Assembly: GCA_021604505.1 (NCBI GenBank)
Contig: BQJC01000001.1
Location: forward strand, 310,001-374,000
Length of the DNA stretch: 64,000 nucleotides
From: Nitrospinaceae bacterium
GTDB taxonomy: Bacteria; Nitrospinota; Nitrospinia; Nitrospinales; VA-1
Direction of reading: 5' to 3'
Part shown: positions 31,560 through 44,963 of the stretch, piece after piece
How the letters are laid out: each line of letters starts with the position of its first letter
Numbering within the stretch: position 1 is the first letter of the stretch
Position numbers and translations under genes: made by a program
The notes under the pieces: model-generated
Databases searched by the model: none
What the model was told of the DNA's origin: nothing
The model's input: the letters and a program-made list of their open reading frames with translations, nothing else

Positions 31560-32260
31560 GAATCCTCTTTCTTTTCCGCGACCAGGTAGATGTCGCGAAA
31601 TCCAGGTTGGCTGTATTCCTTAAGAAGCAGGCTTCTGTACAAAGAAGTTTTATAAATGTTGGTGCGGCAAATGTATTTCCAAAGATAAAAAAATGGAATG
31701 CACAATGTACTGACCCATTTTCCTTTAAGGTCGAGCCGGACCAGATTAAAACCGGTTGAGTTCAAATGGTCCTCGATTTCCTTCTCATGGAAATGCCGGT
31801 GGTCGACCATCCAGTGGGCGATATCCATGATTCCGTGAAGCCAGTGGCTATGTGGGGTGGATAAGACGAGTTTTCCTGCCGGGACCAGAACCCGGTTTAT
31901 TTCTTTGAGTGCTTCCCGCTCCTTACCTCCCAGATGCTCAAAAACAGTGAACAAAAGGACGGCTTCAATGCTGTTATCATTAAAGGGGAGGTCAAAAAGA
32001 TTGCCGTTTACGAATGAGACGGACGGATGGGCGGCTCTTGCAATTGCAAGAGCGTTGATATCCTGGTCCAGGGCAAAAGCCTTTTGCGGAAGTCCTGAAG
32101 AAATCGCTTCGAAACTCCCTGTCCAGCACCCGATGTTTAAAATCCTCTTTCCTCGAATCCATTCCCCGGCATAGACAACGTCAACATGGTGGTATGCGTC
32201 GGGCCGGCTATCTTCAAATCCAGATAAAAACTTTAGTGGGGGAGGGGGTTTCTCATTCAT
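31550..32260 (-). CDS. Class I SAM-dependent methyltransferase
   Basis: 236 residues. Motif I is ILNIGCWTGSFEAI, then AFALDQDINALAI, an acidic FNDNSIEAVLLFTVFEHL and EINRVLVPAGKLVLSTPH. The N-terminus lacks the zinc ribbon seen in the methyltransferase at 22095-23093. It overlaps the stop of the 1052-residue gene by 8 nt and its own stop overlaps the GT-C-like start, so all three are co-translated. Likely role: glycan methylation. Target unknown. Confidence 0.8.
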   Translation of the reverse strand: MNEKPPPPLKFLSGFEDSRPDAYHHVDVVYAGEWIRGKRILNIGCWTGSFEAISSGLPQKAFALDQDINALAIARAAHPSVSFVNGNLFDLPFNDNSIEAVLLFTVFEHLGGKEREALKEINRVLVPAGKLVLSTPHSHWLHGIMDIAHWMVDHRHFHEKEIEDHLNSTGFNLVRLDLKGKWVSTLCIPFFYLWKYICRTNIYKTSLYRSLLLKEYSQPGFRDIYLVAEKKEDSWK

Positions 32261-35200
32261 GCCCGGAATTTTCTATTAAAACTTTTTCATAGGGAACTCT
32301 ATGAGATTTCCCCATTCGAGAATAAATAATGAATTGAATCCCGAAAAAAACCGCTATTCCTAAAATTGAGATGACCGATCCAATGTGAAGAAGGCGTTGC
32401 GGTTTAAAAGTTAGGATTAAATCATAATTTCCAGGTTTCTGCAGAAAAAAACCGTTGGCAAAACCATTTGCTTTGAAATGCGGAAATCCCTTTTGCGGAC
32501 CCTCCCCGCCTGCGTTTTTGAGACTCCAACCCCTGTGGAACGAATTGGATACCACCAGATAACCGGGTTTTGTAAGGGACACCTTCAAACGGTAGTGGGT
32601 CGGGTTGATTTTCCGGTAGACCGGCATAGGGGTTATTGCTGTTTCTTGAGATCCATTCAGGGGAGAGAAAAAGATCGCAGCGTTGATTCCATGACGCTGA
32701 CTTAATTCAAAGCTGTTTTTTCCTGCATTCAATTTGACAGTACTGCCGAAACTCAGCATTTTGTTTTTTACAATCTCTTCCAGGGGCACTTCTGTTCCGT
32801 TTATTTTCAGGTAAGGGGCCAAACCTTCCCCGTAGGCAAAATCTGTTCTGTGGTCCATCAGGACGACCAGAGCCTCCATTTCCATCGATTGAGAAATTTG
32901 GAAACCACCAGAAAAAACAAGATTTTGAAAACGAAAGGATGGTTTTAAAAAACCGAACGTTAGAGATTCTTTACCCCTTGGCGTCCCAGGGAAAGGGGTG
33001 TAAAAGGAAATAATATTTTCCCCAGGTTTGATTTCCATATTTCTAATGATGATCCTGGTCGATTGGTCCCCTTTCATTTCAGTGACCTGGGCGAGTTCCC
33101 CATTTAAATAAGAATATAAGGAACGATCCAGTTTGAAAGAAATGGCATCAAAAACAAAATTGGAACGAAGGCTTTTATTATGAGGATTAACCACTGAAAG
33201 ATGTCTGGCTTTAGGATTATTTTTTTCCATCCAGATCCAGGTGCCCCCCGGACTTTTTTCGGGAAGAAAAAAACCACCTATCACATCACTTTTGATGGAT
33301 TTCATAGCGAGTTCTTTTTGGGGTACCGAATCGGTTTGTTCATCTACAGTTCCCATTGGTTCCAGAGTCAGGGTGTCAAACACGATCCTTCTTGAGAAAC
33401 CCTCGAGTCTTTCCAAGACTCTTTCATCCCCTTCAGGGTTGTAAGAAATTTGCGAAAAACTATCAAGAGGGAGTTGATTCCGCCAATCGCGATTCTCCGA
33501 TTGGCTTTTAACCAGAAACACAGGGCGGGAGGGCCAAAACCCTTGCGTGATCGGCCCGAGGGCTTCTTCCGGTCCATCAACGACATTTAAGTCCGCAGAA
33601 GTGTATACAAAAGGCAGGTCGGTATCAACTGAATAGAACTGATAATTTCCGAACTCGCGCTCCGGTTTGAGTCCAGATTGTCTTTCCAGGCTTTTTTTGA
33701 CGGATTGATAGGAATCACCGGTTTTATAGTATTTGATCGATCTGTCATGCAGCACCCATTTTGTGTTCATTAAACCCAGCAAACGATCTGCCCGTGGCAG
33801 TTGATCTCTGTATATTCCCTGGTGAATCATGTTGGTCAGGGGCAGAACCTGGTTGGGAGAACCTTGCGCATAAAGAATTTTTTCCGGGACATACTTAAAA
33901 ATCACCGGCTGATTGGTGAAATTGACAAGGAAAGGAGCAAACCCCCTGTATCCCCAATCCGTTGTCCAGAAACGGTCTTCATTCAAGGCAAATACCCGGT
34001 TATCCTCCTCAAGGCTGTCCAACCATTTCCCTGCGTTGGGAACGTAGCCGGGTGGCGAAATCCTTGAAGGAGGGAGATAGGATCTTTCTTCGTTTGTCGG
34101 AAACGTTTTTCCGGTTGCGACGGGGTAAGCGTAAACCACAATCATCCCGATCAACGAAACCGTTGACGTAAAATAAGCGAGCCGGTTGTTTCTGAACCTG
34201 GATTCCAGCCATGTGGTAAACGCTCCAAGAAAAATAGCATAGCCGATACAAACCAACAGCATGAACTTGAAGTATGGGCTTCTCGCGATCCAGAACAACG
34301 GGATGTGGTTGAACATCCATTGATAGAGAAATCCAAACAGAGAAGCGCTTCCCATGCTGAGCCATATTCCTGTAAATGTCAGGCACGCAAAAAAACTTTT
34401 GTGTTTACAGGACCCCTTGTAAATGCCGAAGGCAACTGTTAAAGGCAGGGCACAGCTCAGAAATATAAGAAGCCAGTTGGTCCGGTACAGTTCCGCGTAA
34501 GGACGATAAGGTTCTCCCACTCCCTGATACCAGGTCCAGTCCCCAAGAAATCGGATCACATTTAAAAAACCCGTGTATTGGCTCTGGCCTTCAAGCCAGC
34601 CGATGTATTTTTTTGGACCCAATTCATACGCCCCTTGCCCCGCAAGATTCCATGCCTCAATCACCTGGGGAACGATCCAGTAGGCGTTTACAACGGCCAT
34701 CAAAAGGGTGGTCTGAAATAGAACCCCCGATGTATGAAAAAAGTTTTTATTTTTGATACTCCTAAAAATCAGAAACCCGGCCAGAATCCCCATTAAAAGT
34801 GCGATCGCCAGAGCCTCTGAAATATTATTGCCGATGGGAGACAGCAAAAGAGAAGCTATGGCGATTTTTATAAAAAGAATTTGTTTTTTCGTGGAACCTT
34901 CAACGGCTTCCAAGAGTAGTGAAATGAGCCAGGGCAAAATGGCGTAAGCCGCGACCAGGGGTGGTTTGAATCCTAGCCAGACATGTTCCTGCCAGAGATT
35001 GAAAAGATAGAAGGTCACGGTAACCAAGGGTGCGCCGAACGGTCTCGAATCTGGGAATATTCGCCTGGCCAGTCCGTACATGCTCAAAGCGGAAACAAGA
35101 AACCAACCGGAAAAGGTCACCATCTGCGTTTCCCACAGCGGCAGGCCAAGCCAACGAAGGGTAGTGGGAATTGCTTGAAAGAGAAGGAGACAGGGATCCA

Positions 35201-35411
35201 GTACCGATTCGGCTCCTGTCCCTATCCTGGAGTTCCACATGTAAAAGTATTGCAACCAACCCTCCAGGGTTGGAGAATGCCGCAAATCCTCGGAGTTCAT
35301 CAAAAATCCGGGAGTGAACCAGTAAACGGGAGCAATCCCCATGAGACAGATCATCAGGAATGTCAACATTCTTTCCAATCTGAATTTAAGCTGTGGGTTT
35401 TCCGGGATCAT
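32253..35411 (-). CDS. Large GT-C-like membrane protein with C-terminal beta domain (paralogue)
   Basis: 1052 residues. N-terminal membrane half with about 12 helices and the loop FLMNSEDL (Ser40-Glu41-Asp42). Shared blocks LNVIRFLGDWTWYQGVGEPY, IARSPYFKFMLL and GKTFPTNEERSYLPPS match the paralogues. The long periplasmic part ends with the shared module YRKINPTHYRLKVSLTKPG, KANGFANGFFLQ and FKPQRLLHIGSV, then a last helix. The ATG overlaps the GT4 stop by 4 nt (ATGA). Likely a sugar transferase using polyprenyl-phosphate donors on the periplasmic side; this is inferred from layout only. Confidence 0.8.
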   Translation of the reverse strand: MIPENPQLKFRLERMLTFLMICLMGIAPVYWFTPGFLMNSEDLRHSPTLEGWLQYFYMWNSRIGTGAESVLDPCLLLFQAIPTTLRWLGLPLWETQMVTFSGWFLVSALSMYGLARRIFPDSRPFGAPLVTVTFYLFNLWQEHVWLGFKPPLVAAYAILPWLISLLLEAVEGSTKKQILFIKIAIASLLLSPIGNNISEALAIALLMGILAGFLIFRSIKNKNFFHTSGVLFQTTLLMAVVNAYWIVPQVIEAWNLAGQGAYELGPKKYIGWLEGQSQYTGFLNVIRFLGDWTWYQGVGEPYRPYAELYRTNWLLIFLSCALPLTVAFGIYKGSCKHKSFFACLTFTGIWLSMGSASLFGFLYQWMFNHIPLFWIARSPYFKFMLLVCIGYAIFLGAFTTWLESRFRNNRLAYFTSTVSLIGMIVVYAYPVATGKTFPTNEERSYLPPSRISPPGYVPNAGKWLDSLEEDNRVFALNEDRFWTTDWGYRGFAPFLVNFTNQPVIFKYVPEKILYAQGSPNQVLPLTNMIHQGIYRDQLPRADRLLGLMNTKWVLHDRSIKYYKTGDSYQSVKKSLERQSGLKPEREFGNYQFYSVDTDLPFVYTSADLNVVDGPEEALGPITQGFWPSRPVFLVKSQSENRDWRNQLPLDSFSQISYNPEGDERVLERLEGFSRRIVFDTLTLEPMGTVDEQTDSVPQKELAMKSIKSDVIGGFFLPEKSPGGTWIWMEKNNPKARHLSVVNPHNKSLRSNFVFDAISFKLDRSLYSYLNGELAQVTEMKGDQSTRIIIRNMEIKPGENIISFYTPFPGTPRGKESLTFGFLKPSFRFQNLVFSGGFQISQSMEMEALVVLMDHRTDFAYGEGLAPYLKINGTEVPLEEIVKNKMLSFGSTVKLNAGKNSFELSQRHGINAAIFFSPLNGSQETAITPMPVYRKINPTHYRLKVSLTKPGYLVVSNSFHRGWSLKNAGGEGPQKGFPHFKANGFANGFFLQKPGNYDLILTFKPQRLLHIGSVISILGIAVFFGIQFIIYSRMGKSHRVPYEKVLIENSGHE

Positions 35412-37856: not shown

Positions 37857-38831
37857 TCAAGCATTTTTGCTTTGTCTTTTGATTGAAAAGGAGAATCGAT
37901 GGAAGAGAAGAAATCCCGCGCAGAGGCTGACCACTATTCCGCTTATAATAATTCCCAGGTAAAATAGCCGTTGCGGCCAGAATTCTATCACGATTTCAAA
38001 ATCCACACTTCCATCGGGATGCAACCGGTAGAATCCGTCATTTTGACCCTGAACAGCTGGAAATTTCTTCAGGAGTTCGAGATCCAGCCACCAGCTGTTA
38101 GCATATCCATTTACCTTCCAATGGAATAGTTCCGGCCAGTTCACAACTTTCGCATTGCGGGCCGAGTCAACATTCCAGAATTCAGGATCTTCCGCAAAGC
38201 AGGTTTTTTTTTTGTCTTCATCACTCCGGCACGTCGTTTCCAACCTGCTCGGAAACCAGGTTTCCCATATTTCCCCCCTGGGCAGGTTATTATTCCTGAC
38301 TGCGGTGGGAACAGCAAAAGGGCTGGAAGTCTTTTCCAGCTTTTTATTTTGCTCTTTTACCGAATCAGATTCCGGGTGCCAGGGCTTTAAATAAACTGTC
38401 CACTCATTGTGGTAGATTTCATTTAAGATCAGAGGAAAATTGTTCTGCGCTCTGTGAATCCGCAGGCGAAATTTTGTTGGATTAATTCTTGCGTACTCAA
38501 TCAATGGAAATAAAAGTTTTTTGGAATTTCTAAGAAAATTAGCCTCTTCACCTGATTCCGGGTCCAAGAAAACGTTATTATCAAAGTTTAACCTATAAAG
38601 AATTCTTTTCATGGATTCCAGATGACCTGAATTCTGGTCTTCAATAAAGAAAATATTCTGATGCTTTTCTGAATGCGGAAATTTAAAAAATCCCTCTAAA
38701 AAATCCAGATCCCTTTTCTTTCCTGCGGCATATACCGTGTTTTTCAATCCGTATCCATTCCAATTTGCAAAAAACAGGCAAAAGGCAAGAAAAACCATCA
38801 GAGGATTTTTGAGATGATTTTGCACTCTCAT
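37857..38831 (-). CDS. Stand-alone C-terminal module of the large GT-C-like family
   Basis: 324 residues from the ATG at 38831, one codon inside a TTG-start frame. Residues 1 to about 35 look like a signal sequence or anchor (MVFLAFCLFFANWNGYG, then VYAAG). The rest matches only the C-terminal ends of the 1030- and 1052-residue proteins: INPTKFRLRIH, FPLILNEIYHNEW, KVNGYANSWWLD, IVIEFWPQRLFYLGI, then a last helix. The membrane transferase half is absent. It could complement the 610-residue paralogue, which lacks this module. It is not a broken remnant as far as I can see: the frame is intact and has its own exported N-terminus. Confidence 0.7.
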   Translation of the reverse strand: MRVQNHLKNPLMVFLAFCLFFANWNGYGLKNTVYAAGKKRDLDFLEGFFKFPHSEKHQNIFFIEDQNSGHLESMKRILYRLNFDNNVFLDPESGEEANFLRNSKKLLFPLIEYARINPTKFRLRIHRAQNNFPLILNEIYHNEWTVYLKPWHPESDSVKEQNKKLEKTSSPFAVPTAVRNNNLPRGEIWETWFPSRLETTCRSDEDKKKTCFAEDPEFWNVDSARNAKVVNWPELFHWKVNGYANSWWLDLELLKKFPAVQGQNDGFYRLHPDGSVDFEIVIEFWPQRLFYLGIIISGIVVSLCAGFLLFHRFSFSIKRQSKNA

Positions 38832-38946
38832 CAAATCTCAGGAGCAGGCGTCGGAACAGACTGACTTTGCCGACGGACACATATTTGGGAGAGCTCCGGG
38901 ATCCTCGTTTTTTTCAGACAGGGAAATATGGAATCAGAGAAGAGGC

Positions 38947-40461
38947 TCATGTGCTTACGGGTTTGCCTTCATGTTTTGTCAGATTGAACATGTGCTGGCG
39001 AACCCGTCGTACTGCCCGTGCACCATAAGTGAATAAAAACTGCCAATCAGATTTATTGTGCCAGGACAAAAACTTGAGTTGACGGGCGATAAATCGCGGG
39101 TGAAACGCGATCCCGTAAATCTGACGAACCGCGGCATAATATTCGTCATGTGGAATGGGTGTTTTGACGATGAGTTTGCTCATGTCAAATTCGTCGTAGT
39201 CCTTAGCAAGCAGGACATTGTTATCGATACATTCCTGATGGTAAGGGGTGAAATCCAGTGGGGTGCAGAGAGTGACCTGCAAAGTTCGGGCCAGCCCTTT
39301 GAACATCAGGTGTCTGACGTTGTTAACCGTCTGCTGGAGTTGCTTTTTAGTCTGCCAGTAATAGCCCACCATGATCGTCAGATGGGGAAACAGGCCGTGC
39401 TTCGTGTATAGGCGAAGGTTTCTTTCCGCATCCTCGACGCCGTACCCTTTGTTCAAGCGAGTGAGAGTCTCTTCGTCACTGGCTTCCAGGCCGATGAGAA
39501 CAAATCTGAAATTAGCTTTGCTGAGCAGTGCGAGGGTTTCTTCATCCAGATAACCGAAGCGCGTGTTGAAACCGAAGTAGCAGTCCTTTTTGTGAAGGCC
39601 CCGGTCGATGATGCCCTTTGCAAATTCCCTGGCCTCCGCTCCCCGGTACCAGACACCAGAGTCGTCGAAAATCTCCCGGACGCCATAATCTTCAATCAGA
39701 CGTTGATATTCATCGAGGCTTTTTTGCACCGAGCGCACTGAAAAGGTCAGGTCCGGTCCGTTGTACCGGCAGAAGGTGCATTTGCCGAACATGCAGTCTC
39801 GAATCACACTTGTGGCGTAAGTGCCGGGAGTTTGCAGGAAATTTCCATTTTCAAAGGCATAGTTCTTCCATTGCACCAGATCCCGGTCCACATCCGGAGA
39901 GAGATCCAGGGGTTCGATTTGTTTGAAATTTCCTGTGTCTAGAAAGTCATTGTCATCCCTTCGGATCATCAATCCTTCGATCGGACAGTTATCTCTCCAG
40001 CTGGAATGTTCGTCGATATAGGGGATCAGTTTTCTCAATACAAAATCAATGTGGTTGCTTCTAAGAACAATATCCGTTTGACTCTTACGGAGGGTTTCTT
40101 CCGGCTTTCGCATGGAGTGATATCCGGTCATGATCACCACGCATTTAGGCAGGTCCCCTTTTAGTTTGTCGGTGAGGCGCCAGTACAGGTTCATGACGGG
40201 TGTGGTGCTCTCAAAAACCACGACATCTGGATTCCATCGAACAAGATCCTGGTACCACTGGTCGAATGTTTTAAGCTGGGAATTTCCATCGTCCCATAGA
40301 ATGTCGTAACCCAGATCCCGAAGCCAGGTGGCGGCTTGACCGTGTACCACCGGCAAAAGGTAGGTGGGTTTTTTAAAAAACTGGACGTTGCGATTCTGGG
40401 ACACCATGGCCTTCTGGCCATCTTTGTTTACAATCGGAGGGTAAGAAATTGCTATCTTCAT
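38947..40461 (-). CDS. B12-binding-type radical SAM protein 1
   Basis: 504 residues. An N-terminal Rossmann-like region (about 1-150) resembles the cobalamin-binding domain of the BchE family but lacks the usual GGxHxT text; the matching spot reads MTGYHSMRKP. The radical SAM core starts near residue 215 with Cys223-x4-Cys228-x2-Cys231 (RDCMFGKCTFCRYNG), a variant of the usual Cx3Cx2C. FRFVLIGLEASDEETLTRLNKGY is the conserved strand 5 region. Known relatives methylate or rearrange unactivated carbons. Just upstream lies an FNR-like flavoprotein that could feed it electrons. Substrate unknown; a sugar or lipid carrier is likely from context. Confidence 0.8.
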   Translation of the reverse strand: MKIAISYPPIVNKDGQKAMVSQNRNVQFFKKPTYLLPVVHGQAATWLRDLGYDILWDDGNSQLKTFDQWYQDLVRWNPDVVVFESTTPVMNLYWRLTDKLKGDLPKCVVIMTGYHSMRKPEETLRKSQTDIVLRSNHIDFVLRKLIPYIDEHSSWRDNCPIEGLMIRRDDNDFLDTGNFKQIEPLDLSPDVDRDLVQWKNYAFENGNFLQTPGTYATSVIRDCMFGKCTFCRYNGPDLTFSVRSVQKSLDEYQRLIEDYGVREIFDDSGVWYRGAEAREFAKGIIDRGLHKKDCYFGFNTRFGYLDEETLALLSKANFRFVLIGLEASDEETLTRLNKGYGVEDAERNLRLYTKHGLFPHLTIMVGYYWQTKKQLQQTVNNVRHLMFKGLARTLQVTLCTPLDFTPYHQECIDNNVLLAKDYDEFDMSKLIVKTPIPHDEYYAAVRQIYGIAFHPRFIARQLKFLSWHNKSDWQFLFTYGARAVRRVRQHMFNLTKHEGKPVST

Positions 40462-40506
40462 AACGGGTTCCGTTAAAATGGGGTGGGGTTAATTAAAAGG
40501 TTCCTG

Positions 40507-41154
40507 TCAAAAAAATGCTTCTGTAAAAATCTGATCTCCTGAAACTCCTTTGTTTCGCAACAGATCATAAACGTCATGAATCATTCCCTGATTGCCGCAA
40601 AGGTAGTAAATGCTTGAAGTGCAAACTTCGTTGTCATTCAAGTGGCCCGTGACACGGCCGTTGTAACCTTCTCCAGACTGTCTCGAAACACAACAAATGA
40701 TTCGCGATGGGTCATAATCGTCATAGTCGTAGCGCTCATCGGTGGTTCGAATTCCATTGATGATCTGATACTCAAGCTCAGGATAACTGCGCACGAAGGA
40801 ATGAAAAGGCGCAATGCCTGTTCCTGTGCTGATAAGAACAAAGCGGGTGCCATCAATTTTTTTAGGATCAAGAAAAAACGAACCGTACGGACCGTGAATT
40901 TCAACCTCCGCGCCTGCGGTCAGCTTACGCAACGCCGGAGAAACAGACCCTCCCGGAACTTCCTTGATCAAAAATTCCAGATACTCATCCTTCACTCCCG
41001 AATAGGTGGAGTATTCCCGATTGACTCCGCTTCCCTTCAGGCCCAAATTGACGCATTGACCCGGAATAAATTGAAAACCGTTTCGTTCCAATCGGACCAC
41101 ATAGGCCGTGGACGAAAGGTTTCGAATGCTGAGAACCTTAAGCAACAAAATCAA
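40507..41154 (-). CDS. Ferredoxin-NADP reductase-like flavoprotein
   Basis: 215 residues, full length for a bare FAD/NAD(P) reductase module. FAD motif REYSTYSG (R-x-Y-S), GPYGSFFLD, the pyridine-nucleotide loop LISTGTGIAPFHSF and the C-terminal YYLCGNQGMIHDVYDLL and aromatic-rich EAFF end are all in place. There is no [2Fe-2S] domain. It should pass electrons from NAD(P)H to a ferredoxin or directly to an iron enzyme. Its position 45 bp before a radical SAM gene suggests it serves that enzyme. The start is a TTG with only a weak AGAG ribosome site. Confidence 0.8.
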   Translation of the reverse strand: MILLLKVLSIRNLSSTAYVVRLERNGFQFIPGQCVNLGLKGSGVNREYSTYSGVKDEYLEFLIKEVPGGSVSPALRKLTAGAEVEIHGPYGSFFLDPKKIDGTRFVLISTGTGIAPFHSFVRSYPELEYQIINGIRTTDERYDYDDYDPSRIICCVSRQSGEGYNGRVTGHLNDNEVCTSSIYYLCGNQGMIHDVYDLLRNKGVSGDQIFTEAFF

Positions 41155-41195: not shown

Positions 41196-42194
41196 TTACC
41201 GGCCAAGGGAACTGTTCAGTTCCCTTGTCGTGAATCCCTGAACAAATTGAGCCCCGTACCAAATGTGGGTGAGAATAATATATGGGACGGCGCCCAATGC
41301 CACGCGTAATGTTTCATGCTGGCGAATGTCTTTCCATGAAACGGCCAAAGCCGCACAGTATACCGCCCAGCCCGTTAAATACAAGATGCCTGCAAATTTG
41401 GAAAGAACCGAAAGCCCGAGACCGATGATGACAAACGCCACCCAGATCGCCGGTATAAAATATTTAAGCCGTCGGGAGGTTTTAGGATATCTTTTCGCAA
41501 AAAAACCACGATGTTTGCCATAATTGCCGATTTGGCGTAGGTGCTTAGGCAACCCTGCCCGGCGGTGATGCCAGACAATCAGTTCCGGTACATAAACCAG
41601 TTTTTTATCAGTCTGCTCGAGAATTTTCAAACAGAACAGGGTGTCCTCTCCCGGCCAGTATTTTGAATCAAACCCTCCGATTTCATAAAATACTTGTTTT
41701 CTAACGATTAAATTGACGCTTGGCCAGTCATCGACTGATTTTCCAGGTGGGCAGGGGACGTACCGCTCCGGACATCCTCCCGATACCGGGCTCAAAAAAA
41801 CCGCTCCGGAAACACGAGCCCAGAAAGGATCGGTTTTAGGGGTGATGGCTGGGCCACCGATGGCCCCAACCTCCTGATGAGCCATCAGAAAATCCCGGGC
41901 CACATTGAGCCAGTCAGGTTGCGGGTAGGCATCGTCGTCGATGAAAGCCAGATACTGTCCTTTCGCCTGCTCCGCTCCCAAATCCCTTTTGATGGCGGGA
42001 TTGACTTCGCCGGTAGGCAGAATATTTACAGGCAGGCCGCCATAGCATTCGGGAAGAGCCACTTCATGATCCGGAAGAAGAATGACTTCATACCCTTTAA
42101 AAGTGAGTTTGCGGATATGCGACAGGCATTCGTCAAGGTCGGGAGACCAGGATTTGAACGGGATGACTATCGAAAATTCCAGAGGATCATTCAT
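41196..42194 (-). CDS. Glycosyltransferase family 2 with C-terminal membrane helices
   Basis: 332 residues from the ATG at 42194, overlapping the upstream stop by 8 nt (ATGAATGA); the frame opens four codons earlier. The GT-A core has FSIVIPFKSW, YLAFIDDDAYPQPDW (metal-binding DDD), GPAITPKTDPF and the late acidic GGFDSKYWPGEDTLFCLKIL. Two or three helices near residues 245-310 anchor it. Likely transfers a sugar to a lipid-linked acceptor on the cytoplasmic face. Confidence 0.85.
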   Translation of the reverse strand: MNDPLEFSIVIPFKSWSPDLDECLSHIRKLTFKGYEVILLPDHEVALPECYGGLPVNILPTGEVNPAIKRDLGAEQAKGQYLAFIDDDAYPQPDWLNVARDFLMAHQEVGAIGGPAITPKTDPFWARVSGAVFLSPVSGGCPERYVPCPPGKSVDDWPSVNLIVRKQVFYEIGGFDSKYWPGEDTLFCLKILEQTDKKLVYVPELIVWHHRRAGLPKHLRQIGNYGKHRGFFAKRYPKTSRRLKYFIPAIWVAFVIIGLGLSVLSKFAGILYLTGWAVYCAALAVSWKDIRQHETLRVALGAVPYIILTHIWYGAQFVQGFTTRELNSSLGR

Positions 42195-43179
42195 CTTCAA
42201 ACCCAATCCGATCCTGAACGATGTATAGAGGGCGGCGAATCACCTCAATATGAATGTGCCCGATGTAAAGAGCAATCAATCCCAGAGCGGCGAGAACCAC
42301 CCCGAAAAGCAAGGTATTAAAGACCACGAAATAGGCGAGGGGGGTGTAAATCTCTCCAAAAGCAAACTGGGTCACCATCATGTAGAACAGAACCATCAGC
42401 GTGAGGGTGACTACCGACAACCCCAGCCAGCCGGTCACTCTCAGCGGCAGAAGCGAAAAAGAAGTGAAGGAATTGACCGCCAGATTGGTAAGGTGCCTCA
42501 AGTTGAAAGTCGAAACGCCGCTGAACCTATCCGGAGCTGAAAAGGTGACAAATGTCTTTCGAAAACCCATCCAGTCGATCAGGCCTCGGAAAAAACGGGT
42601 CCGCTCTTCAAACGTCTTTAGGACTTTTAGCACATCTCTATCCAGCAGGCGGAAATCGGTAGCCTTAGGATGAATTTCGAGGTCGGAAAAGTGCTTTAAC
42701 ATATAATAAAAAATTCGTGACCCCGCTTTTCTCATCAAGGAATATTGAATCGCTTCACGTCGTGTCGCGACAATTTGGTAGCCGTTTTCCCATTCGGCAA
42801 TCAGTTCGGCAATGATGGAAGGAGGATGTTGTAGATCCGCGTCAATGAAGATCACGGCATCTGCGTCGGAGACGGCCTCCACTCCAGCAGTTAAGGCGAT
42901 TTCCTTGCCGAAATTCCTGGACAGACTCACTCCCTTCACCCTGGGATCTGCGTCAGCCAGGTATTGCGTAAGTTCCCAGGTATTGTCCGAACTTCCGTCA
43001 TTGACGAAAATAAACTCCCAGCTGTAGGAACCCAATTCGCGGATCGCTTCTTGAACCTCCTTGAAGAATTGCTGCAGATTTCTGGATTCGTTGAAGGCGG
43101 GGACAACCAAAGCGATTTTTTTTCTCTCGTCGAACGGCTCCACTTCCTGGGCGCTGCTTTTGGGCCTGATCAGTTCCAA
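42187..43179 (-). CDS. DPM1/GtrB-like polyprenyl-phosphate glycosyltransferase
   Basis: 330 residues. GT2 core with LVVPAFNESRNLQQFF, VIFIDADLQHPP (D-x-D) and RNFGKEIALTAGVEA, then two C-terminal membrane helices (GWLGLSVVTLTLMVLFYMM and the next). This layout makes polyprenyl-phosphate sugars, which are the donors for periplasmic GT-C enzymes; three or more such candidates sit downstream in the same operon. A second, related gene is at 47678-48628. TTG start with GGAAGG ribosome site. It begins the 31.7-kb minus-strand run down to 11463. Confidence 0.85.
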   Translation of the reverse strand: MELIRPKSSAQEVEPFDERKKIALVVPAFNESRNLQQFFKEVQEAIRELGSYSWEFIFVNDGSSDNTWELTQYLADADPRVKGVSLSRNFGKEIALTAGVEAVSDADAVIFIDADLQHPPSIIAELIAEWENGYQIVATRREAIQYSLMRKAGSRIFYYMLKHFSDLEIHPKATDFRLLDRDVLKVLKTFEERTRFFRGLIDWMGFRKTFVTFSAPDRFSGVSTFNLRHLTNLAVNSFTSFSLLPLRVTGWLGLSVVTLTLMVLFYMMVTQFAFGEIYTPLAYFVVFNTLLFGVVLAALGLIALYIGHIHIEVIRRPLYIVQDRIGFEDE

Positions 43180-43397: not shown

Positions 43398-44963
43398 ATG
43401 GCTTACATTCCACTTCAAAGCAAAGAGGAATTTAAATTTTCCGAGCCCGAAGCCAAGGAGCTTCTTCCTGTTTCCATTCAAAGTGAGGAACATCGGCTAA
43501 CCTTCCGGAAGCTTCCGCCCAACCCAAAAATCCTGCTCCTCGAACCCTATTACCCCCCGGAAGCCGCGTGGGGGAGCCTGAAGGTTGAGCAGGGATATCT
43601 CACGCCACTGGGATCGATTTCTATTTACCGATGGCTTAAGGACAAGGGATATGATGCAGATTTTTTTGACACCCAGTTTGGTGATTATAACTCAGAAGAA
43701 TTAAAAAATTATCTGAAGCAAGGGCAATACGACATGATCGGGCTTCCGGTGTTCACTCCAACGGCAAGCTACGTATTTGCAACCGCTAAATTGATTAGAG
43801 AAGCGTTGCCAGACTGCGTCATCGTTTACGGCGGGGTTCATGCCACCGACATGTCGGTCGAGAGCCTAAAGGAATCTCCTGAGTGCGATTTTATCATACG
43901 CCGGGAAGGTGAGATGACAATGGTCGAGCTTATTGAAGCGATGAAGGCGGGAGCGACGGATTTCAGCCACATAGAGGGATTGACTTGGAGGCAGGATGCG
44001 GGAACGATCGTCATGAATCCCGACCGAGCGCTGATTCCGGACCTGGACGAAACACCGTTGGGCATGTTCGGGGATCTCGATCTGACCAGATACGTCCCCC
44101 ATCCCACCCAGTACATTCAACTGCCAAGTTATTCAATTTTTACTCAGCGGGGATGCCCATATCCCTGTACATTTTGCGAAGCCAGCACAGCTCTCGGGAA
44201 AAAACTAAGAGTGTTCAGTCAGGCCCGGGTGATTGAGGAACTTAAAATTCTCAAGTATGAAAAGGGTGCGCGGGGGATTTATTTTCAGGACTCAACCTTC
44301 ACTCTGAACCGCAAGTACGTCGTGGACCTTTTTGAGCGGATGATTCGCGAGGGTTTGAATGATTTGTTATGGTCCTGCAACACGCGCACCGACCGGGTGG
44401 ACCCGGAGTTGCTGGCTCTCATGTACGAAGCAGGATGCCGGACGATCACATATGGCATTGAATCGGGGAATCAGCAATCCCTGGATGTTCTGAAAAAAAA
44501 TATCAAAGTGGAAACTCAGGAAGAAGCGGTGAACTGGACTCATAAATCCAGGATATCGTTATTGTGCTCCTACATTCTCTGTTTGCCGGGGGAGACAGAC
44601 GATCTGGTTCAGAACACCATTGATTACGCCAAGCGCCTTGGATCGCAAATGACCTTGTTTTATCTGCCTGTGCCTTACCCGGGAAGTGAATTGTACAAGG
44701 TTTGCAAAACCACGGGTGGATTGCGGGAAACGAAAAACTGGAGCGAATTTTTATCCGTCGATTTTGACAATCCGGTTTATATCAATCCGTTGATTGGAAA
44801 GGAGAGGATGCGGTATTGGTATAAAAAAGCTTACCGGCAGTATTACACCTGCCCCAGGGTCTGGCTCAATGGTCTAAAATCGCTCACCTGGAACGGCGGA
44901 TTTCACAGATATTTGCGAGGGATCAACGCGGTCCAGTCCTTGCTGTTCCACAAAGGCTCATAG
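43398..44963 (+). CDS. B12-binding-type radical SAM protein 2 (BchE-like)
   Basis: 521 residues. N-terminal cobalamin-binding-type domain (about 40-190) with the classic IVYGGVHATDMSVESL. Radical SAM core with RGCPYPCTFCEAS (Cys253-x3-Cys257-x2-Cys260), YFQDSTFTLNRKYV and TYGIESGNQQSLDVLKKNI. The last 100 residues are typical of BchE-like proteins. Likely modifies a lipid or glycan carbon centre. It is the only plus-strand gene between 11.5 and 48.6 kb, interrupting two minus-strand runs. It is only distantly like the radical SAM protein at 38947-40461. Confidence 0.85.
   Translation: MAYIPLQSKEEFKFSEPEAKELLPVSIQSEEHRLTFRKLPPNPKILLLEPYYPPEAAWGSLKVEQGYLTPLGSISIYRWLKDKGYDADFFDTQFGDYNSEELKNYLKQGQYDMIGLPVFTPTASYVFATAKLIREALPDCVIVYGGVHATDMSVESLKESPECDFIIRREGEMTMVELIEAMKAGATDFSHIEGLTWRQDAGTIVMNPDRALIPDLDETPLGMFGDLDLTRYVPHPTQYIQLPSYSIFTQRGCPYPCTFCEASTALGKKLRVFSQARVIEELKILKYEKGARGIYFQDSTFTLNRKYVVDLFERMIREGLNDLLWSCNTRTDRVDPELLALMYEAGCRTITYGIESGNQQSLDVLKKNIKVETQEEAVNWTHKSRISLLCSYILCLPGETDDLVQNTIDYAKRLGSQMTLFYLPVPYPGSELYKVCKTTGGLRETKNWSEFLSVDFDNPVYINPLIGKERMRYWYKKAYRQYYTCPRVWLNGLKSLTWNGGFHRYLRGINAVQSLLFHKGS

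Follow-up and report, generated by a model that had tools for sequence, protein, structure and literature searches.

A gene for a B12-type radical SAM protein in a Nitrospinaceae bacterium is preceded by a small gene for a flavoprotein of the ferredoxin/flavodoxin reductase (FNR) type, and the two have stayed together in distantly related genomes. The pair is real and well beyond chance, and sequence comparison strongly supports a dedicated pairing. The role that we consider fairly probable is that of an FNR reserved for a single clade of B12-type radical SAM proteins (clade A), where it would serve as electron donor to an enzyme modifying a carbon of a sugar or glycan. The window, i.e., the whole stretch of DNA that was analysed, comprises 64,000 nucleotides.

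The Gene Pair, Its Domains and Motifs

The two genes are separated by 45 bp (40462-40506), with the coordinates and gap that the first-pass annotation had given. The following features are discussed.

38947-40461, minus strand: B12-type radical SAM gene of clade A, ATG start, 504 aa
39769-39795, minus strand: Cx4Cx2C motif for [4Fe-4S]/SAM (C223, C228, C231), invariant in 28 of 28 clade A and 33 of 33 group B rows
40114-40131, minus strand: MTGYHS, residues 111-116 in the Rossmann (B12-type) domain, invariant in 28 clade A rows
40507-41154, minus strand: FNR gene, Fpr-like FAD/NAD(P)H reductase, TTG start, 215 aa
40807-40824, minus strand: nucleotide motif GTGIAP of the FNR, residues 111-116 (G111, G113, I114, A115 and P116 invariant in 26 rows)
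41008-41019, minus strand: FAD motif REYS of the FNR, residues 46-49 (R46, E47 and S49 invariant, Y48 nearly so, in 26 rows)

The FNR consists of FAD_binding_6 (44.4 bits) and NAD_binding_1 (27.6 bits) domains, each above its Pfam cut-off. No ferredoxin (2Fe-2S) domain was found with Pfam, and the protein is indeed the bare FNR module that it had been called. By its domains, motifs and fold it belongs to the FNR superfamily. Reductases with a 2Fe-2S domain of their own, e.g., BenC and MmoC, were considered and rejected, the match to BenC beginning at profile position 109 of 333.

The partner scores 53.9 bits with Radical_SAM (PF04055, Pfam cut-off 29.5) and is a member of that superfamily. Its B12-binding match (PF02310) of 24.0 bits lies under the cut-off of 32.1; among clade A members, 22 of 28 match this family at E ≤ 0.001. 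Two motifs had been singled out earlier as departures from the usual pattern. Cx4Cx2C is present as written, but it does not mark an unusual subgroup. The spacing is common in B12-type radical SAM proteins, including group B (relatives without an FNR, see below), four of seven other B12-type radical SAM proteins aligned from this genome, and queuine lyase (6p78). MTGYHS is present too, but as a mild variant that keeps the GxH core; one of those seven other proteins (L003) has TGQHPM in place of TGYHSM. In the alignment the more telling difference between A and B is SNHxDF, found in clade A where group B and other B12-type members read a GGDxDF or GExE-type loop, so that clade A may or may not bind cobalamin.

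The low B12-binding score and the SNHxDF replacement would fit a radical SAM protein that gave up cobalamin and retains the B12-type domain as a structural relic, so that the FNR serves the [4Fe-4S] cluster only. However, both A and B conserve G113 and H115 in the loop of the B12 domain. Loss of cobalamin seems to us possible but doubtful, and it is compatible with the donor role, as both can hold.

Several further cysteines are conserved in clade A: C294 (26 of 28), C399 (28 of 28) and C411 (28 of 28, and also 28 of 33 in group B). They were considered as candidate ligands of an auxiliary Fe-S cluster; in the sequence alignment they form no CxxC-type motif. No natural fusion of FNR and radical SAM protein was seen, the open frames matching clade A being at most 547 aa among those listed.

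Conservation of the Pair across Genomes

A collection with one genome per species (84,980 species) was scanned with six exact peptide patterns of the radical SAM protein, a search biased towards close relatives. It returned 32 loci with radical SAM proteins 67-90% identical. These loci span five phylum-level groups: Nitrospinota, SAR324/Lambdaproteobacteria, other Pseudomonadota (Thiomargarita, Parabeggiatoa), Verrucomicrobia, and Patescibacteria-type genomes. In 30 of the 32 the FNR precedes the radical SAM gene on the same strand, which is 30 of 30 testable loci, since the contigs of the other two extend only 242 and 47 bp upstream and these cannot be judged. The gap measures between -1 and 245 bp in 28 of these 30 loci. 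The pairing persists across 831 bp in L021 and 1959 bp in L024, where other open frames lie between the two genes. Near-copies occur in this set (L030/L040, L022/L026, L013/L015 and L021/L023), so that the number of independent loci is smaller than the counts.

Within Nitrospinota the two genes have the same distribution. A close ortholog of the radical SAM gene is present in 11 of 77 genomes (12 loci, overlapping the Nitrospinota loci of the peptide scan), and an FNR ortholog (E ≤ 1e-25) occurs in those same 11 genomes, again at 12 loci, and in 0 of the 66 others. Genome G051 has both genes doubled; in G069 and G075 the distant B type is the only one present. The pairwise distances among the FNRs also correlate with those among the radical SAM proteins (r = 0.88, with 0 of 2000 permutations as high), as measured for the 24 loci, out of 32, common to the radical SAM and FNR alignments (A1, 28 rows, and A2, 26 rows).

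Relatives on plasmids amounted to 28 records, all below 60% identity, and those listed were 23-28% identical. Among the literature listings searched, no title or abstract start describes an FNR/radical SAM pair.

Group B and the Origin of the Pair

Samples of 77, 379, 52 and 387 genomes from four phyla were scanned for more distant relatives. Weaker matches, about 36% identical to the clade A radical SAM protein, make up a sister group, B. The Patescibacteria-type sample has matches in 35 of 379 genomes (2 A, 33 B) and SAR324 in 5 of 52 (4 A, 1 B); matches were also found in 46 of 387 genomes from the phylum to which the Verrucomicrobia locus belongs, 5 of them A. Among the five A loci from the phylum scans only L146, L147 and L148 are new, and L080 is new as well; L143 is the same as L019 and L144 the same as L033 (zero branch length in the tree).

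In these three samples the FNR stands beside every A locus seen. Within flanks of up to about 1.5 kb a side, it is beside none of 31 B genes (among L077-L108) and none of another 26 (L145, L149-L173), and none was found beside the B genes L052 and L053. A search through 40 whole genomes gave the same division: all five A-bearing genomes have an FNR of at least 310 bits, whereas the best score in the 35 B-only genomes is 99 bits, the level of background FNRs, and none of the 35 has an ortholog. The pairing put forward in the first-pass annotation was open to refutation by a lack of co-occurrence in other genomes, and it has withstood that comparison in the testable loci, in Nitrospinota and in the A-bearing and B-only genomes. 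The enzymes of group B manage without the FNR, which counts against the donor role that we favour.

Clade A appears to have spread horizontally over phyla, and genes that are carried along together can stay together. The FNR might then be a general house-keeping reductase whose linkage reflects operon hitch-hiking. Against this, the FNR ortholog is absent from the 66 Nitrospinota genomes without an A gene and from the B-only genomes; moreover, it stays with the radical SAM gene where GT2 glycosyltransferase neighbours are missing (L017, L029) and across the inserted genes of L021 and L024. Hitch-hiking is quite improbable as the source of the linkage.

The tree, built from 99 rows (33 A, 59 B and 7 others), places clade A on one side of a branch with SH-aLRT 100; the clade has a long stem (3.84) and short internal branches. 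This is a quick tree whose outgroup branches are long, and group B does not come out as a single clade. We read these findings to mean that the FNR was probably acquired once, on a clade A stem of strong change, with horizontal spread under tight constraint afterwards.

A and B types also occur together. In L035 (5964-9390) an A-type and a B-type radical SAM gene stand in tandem, downstream of a GT2 gene and the FNR, which suggests that the two types can act in one pathway. Genomes G079, G083 and G086 hold both types.

Predicted Folds and Known Systems

The FNR was modelled with a pLDDT of 94.7, and its structural match is flavodoxin reductase of E. coli (1fdr; Z 27.4, rmsd 2.0, 213 aligned). 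The model of the radical SAM protein has a pLDDT of 83.3, which falls below 50 for the greater part of residues 208-232, the region of the Cys motif. Its top structural match is AprD4 (6fd2; Z 26.8, rmsd 3.0, 411 aligned, 16% identity), and the next are OxsB (5ul3; Z 23.3, rmsd 4.0, 410 aligned), CysS (9n1d; Z 23.2, rmsd 4.2, 419 aligned), MgmA (9ccb; Z 22.8, rmsd 3.6, 376 aligned) and TsrM (6wtf; Z 22.4, rmsd 3.2, 411 aligned). A sequence search with the single protein found no close solved relative, and profile matches are weak (E 0.001 to 0.04).

MgmA and TsrM are methylases by the titles of their structure entries. CysS is a methylase as well, and the AprD4 crystal is not known to hold cobalamin. 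OxsB contracts a ring (PMC13142503). AprD4 deoxygenates a sugar, at C3 of apramycin, with the NADPH-dependent reductase AprD3 as partner (PMC5461906). The other four structures lie within about 4.5 Z of AprD4, and the modelled fold alone picks no reaction. Three assignments were rejected on NCBIfam scores: AprD4 diol dehydratase (NF033070; 18.6 bits, cut-off 500), the BchE equivalog (115.4 bits, the best score obtained, cut-off 481.35) and the HpnJ equivalog (92.5 bits, cut-off 577.6).

The match to AprD4 bears on two of the alternatives. For the loss of cobalamin it is a favourable point that the excerpted review text on AprD4 names no cobalamin need (PMC5461906), but OxsB, CysS and TsrM, which do use cobalamin, match almost as closely. 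The other alternative is that the FNR reduces the product or an intermediate of the radical SAM enzyme, not its cluster, in a two-step reductive modification like that of AprD4 and AprD3. HmuF of Fusobacterium, a flavoprotein encoded beside a radical SAM gene, was shown to traffic heme and to reduce the product, and to be no one-electron donor (PMC10404700). It serves as a warning that a flavoprotein adjoining a radical SAM gene may act on substrate or product. The FNR here, however, is a minimal Fpr-type module without an added substrate domain, and FNR-fold proteins normally pass electrons to proteins or free flavin. Reduction of the product is unlikely in our judgement, though less so than hitch-hiking.

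BchE functioned with ferredoxin, ferredoxin reductase and NADPH (PMC13142503), and a flavodoxin/flavodoxin reductase/NADPH system can reduce cobalamin radical SAM methylases in vitro (PMC8992657). In HmuW/HmuF and TYW1 the flavoprotein is beside or fused to the radical SAM enzyme (PMC10404700, PMC9186531).

The present pair resembles AprD4/AprD3 in its nearest solved fold, in the sugar substrate proposed here and in having a partner reductase; unlike AprD3, this partner is an FNR with FAD and nucleotide motifs. The order of B12-type and radical SAM domains is that of BchE and HpnJ, which are non-methylating B12-type radical SAM proteins, but clade A differs from these in its FNR partner and in a conserved EIFDDSGVWYRG stretch. 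With Fpr the FNR shares its fold; unlike Fpr with flavodoxin, it is gene-linked to a single enzyme. HmuW/HmuF and TYW1 likewise have a flavoprotein dedicated to one radical SAM enzyme, but theirs has a flavodoxin fold with FMN, and HmuF acts on heme and anaerobilin.

Glycan Genes around the Pair

Two GT2 genes, overlapping by 20 bp, lie upstream of the FNR in the same direction.

41196-42206, minus strand: GT2 glycosyltransferase (Pfam) with a hydrophobic C-terminal part, 41 bp before the FNR
42187-43179, minus strand: GT2 resembling polyprenyl-phosphate glycosyltransferases (PgfS/ArnC-like; NCBIfam PgfS 228.7 bits, cut-off 500)

A GT2 of the 41196 type is the commonest upstream neighbour of A and B radical SAM genes alike. 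Of 30 A loci, 17 have it upstream of the FNR, and it is close to 20 of 31 B loci (the L077-L108 set); the 42187-43179 type is also upstream in several A loci. Seven A loci (L017, L018, L020, L025, L029, L031 and L039) have no recognisable 41196-type GT2 upstream despite room for one. No glycan genes were recognised around the Verrucomicrobia pairs L017 and L029, so that the substrate may be independent of the locus. The wider B loci, mostly Patescibacteria-type, have as recurrent members a PMT-like GT-C, a Wzx-like flippase, an unnamed GT2, the 41196-type GT2 and another GT2. Together these neighbours point to lipid-linked glycan assembly, though not at every locus.

Some other features of these loci may be mentioned. 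A block of GT-C, flippase, GT2, GT2 and B-type radical SAM gene recurs in L115, L118, L121-L125 and L128 (Patescibacteria-type), in genomes of about 1 Mb or smaller. A small membrane protein (N8/F8, about 148-164 aa; e.g., L027:7900-8343, L021:3243-3686 and L115:10141-10632) has the motifs IDxDHLxD and HxWE, with the look of a metal hydrolase, and no significant Pfam family. It adjoins the A genes of L021, L024, L027 and L033, and B genes in 10 of the 28 loci L081-L108 as well as in L145. In the window, a second B12-type radical SAM gene (43398-44963, plus strand, 521 aa) stands on the opposite strand beside the GT2 pair, and its product scores 211 bits with HpnJ and 205 bits with BchE, each under the NCBIfam cut-off. 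On the minus strand, 32253-35411 encodes a large membrane protein of 1052 aa and 37857-38834 a protein of 325 aa without Pfam matches. The C-terminal ends of the two resemble each other (WPQRLFYLG and KPQRLLHIG).

Proposed Function

It is from co-inheritance that we infer the donor role. The FNR would take hydride from NAD(P)H onto its FAD and hand single electrons to the [4Fe-4S] cluster of the radical SAM enzyme, where they would drive the cleavage of SAM, and probably also to cob(II)alamin. No Flavodoxin_1 match was found in the organism's own genome (96% complete), and eight of nine A genomes tested, the own genome included, have no match to it, the search covering this one family. Because the genome has no such match, the electrons would pass to the radical SAM enzyme either directly or through ferredoxin. 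The enzyme may then carry out a carbon-centred change, i.e., C-methylation, deoxygenation or ring rearrangement. Its substrate would be a sugar, lipid- or nucleotide-linked, or a lipid-linked glycan intermediate that the GT2 enzymes encoded nearby act on, with a surface glycan as the likely end product.

A bolder version can be suggested only tentatively. The pair would be a two-component, NAD(P)H-driven system in which the FNR reduces the B12-type radical SAM protein directly, without flavodoxin. Acquired once on the stem of clade A, it would perform a new reaction, perhaps one in which a polyprenyl-linked sugar is reductively deoxygenated or has its ring rearranged, and would have spread horizontally to at least five phylum-level groups, including the tiny genomes of Patescibacteria.

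Significance

For most radical SAM enzymes no natural reductant is known, and in-vitro work usually relies on chemical reductants or on generic flavodoxin systems. A clade that brings along a small NAD(P)H reductase of its own at every checkable locus would provide a catalyst that is self-contained, open to testing and possibly of use. What the reductase contributes can be judged by a natural comparison with group B, which lacks the FNR and often has the same family of GT2 next to it. The pair also suggests that the surface glycans of Nitrospinota, Verrucomicrobia and Patescibacteria involve radical chemistry that is still to be explored.
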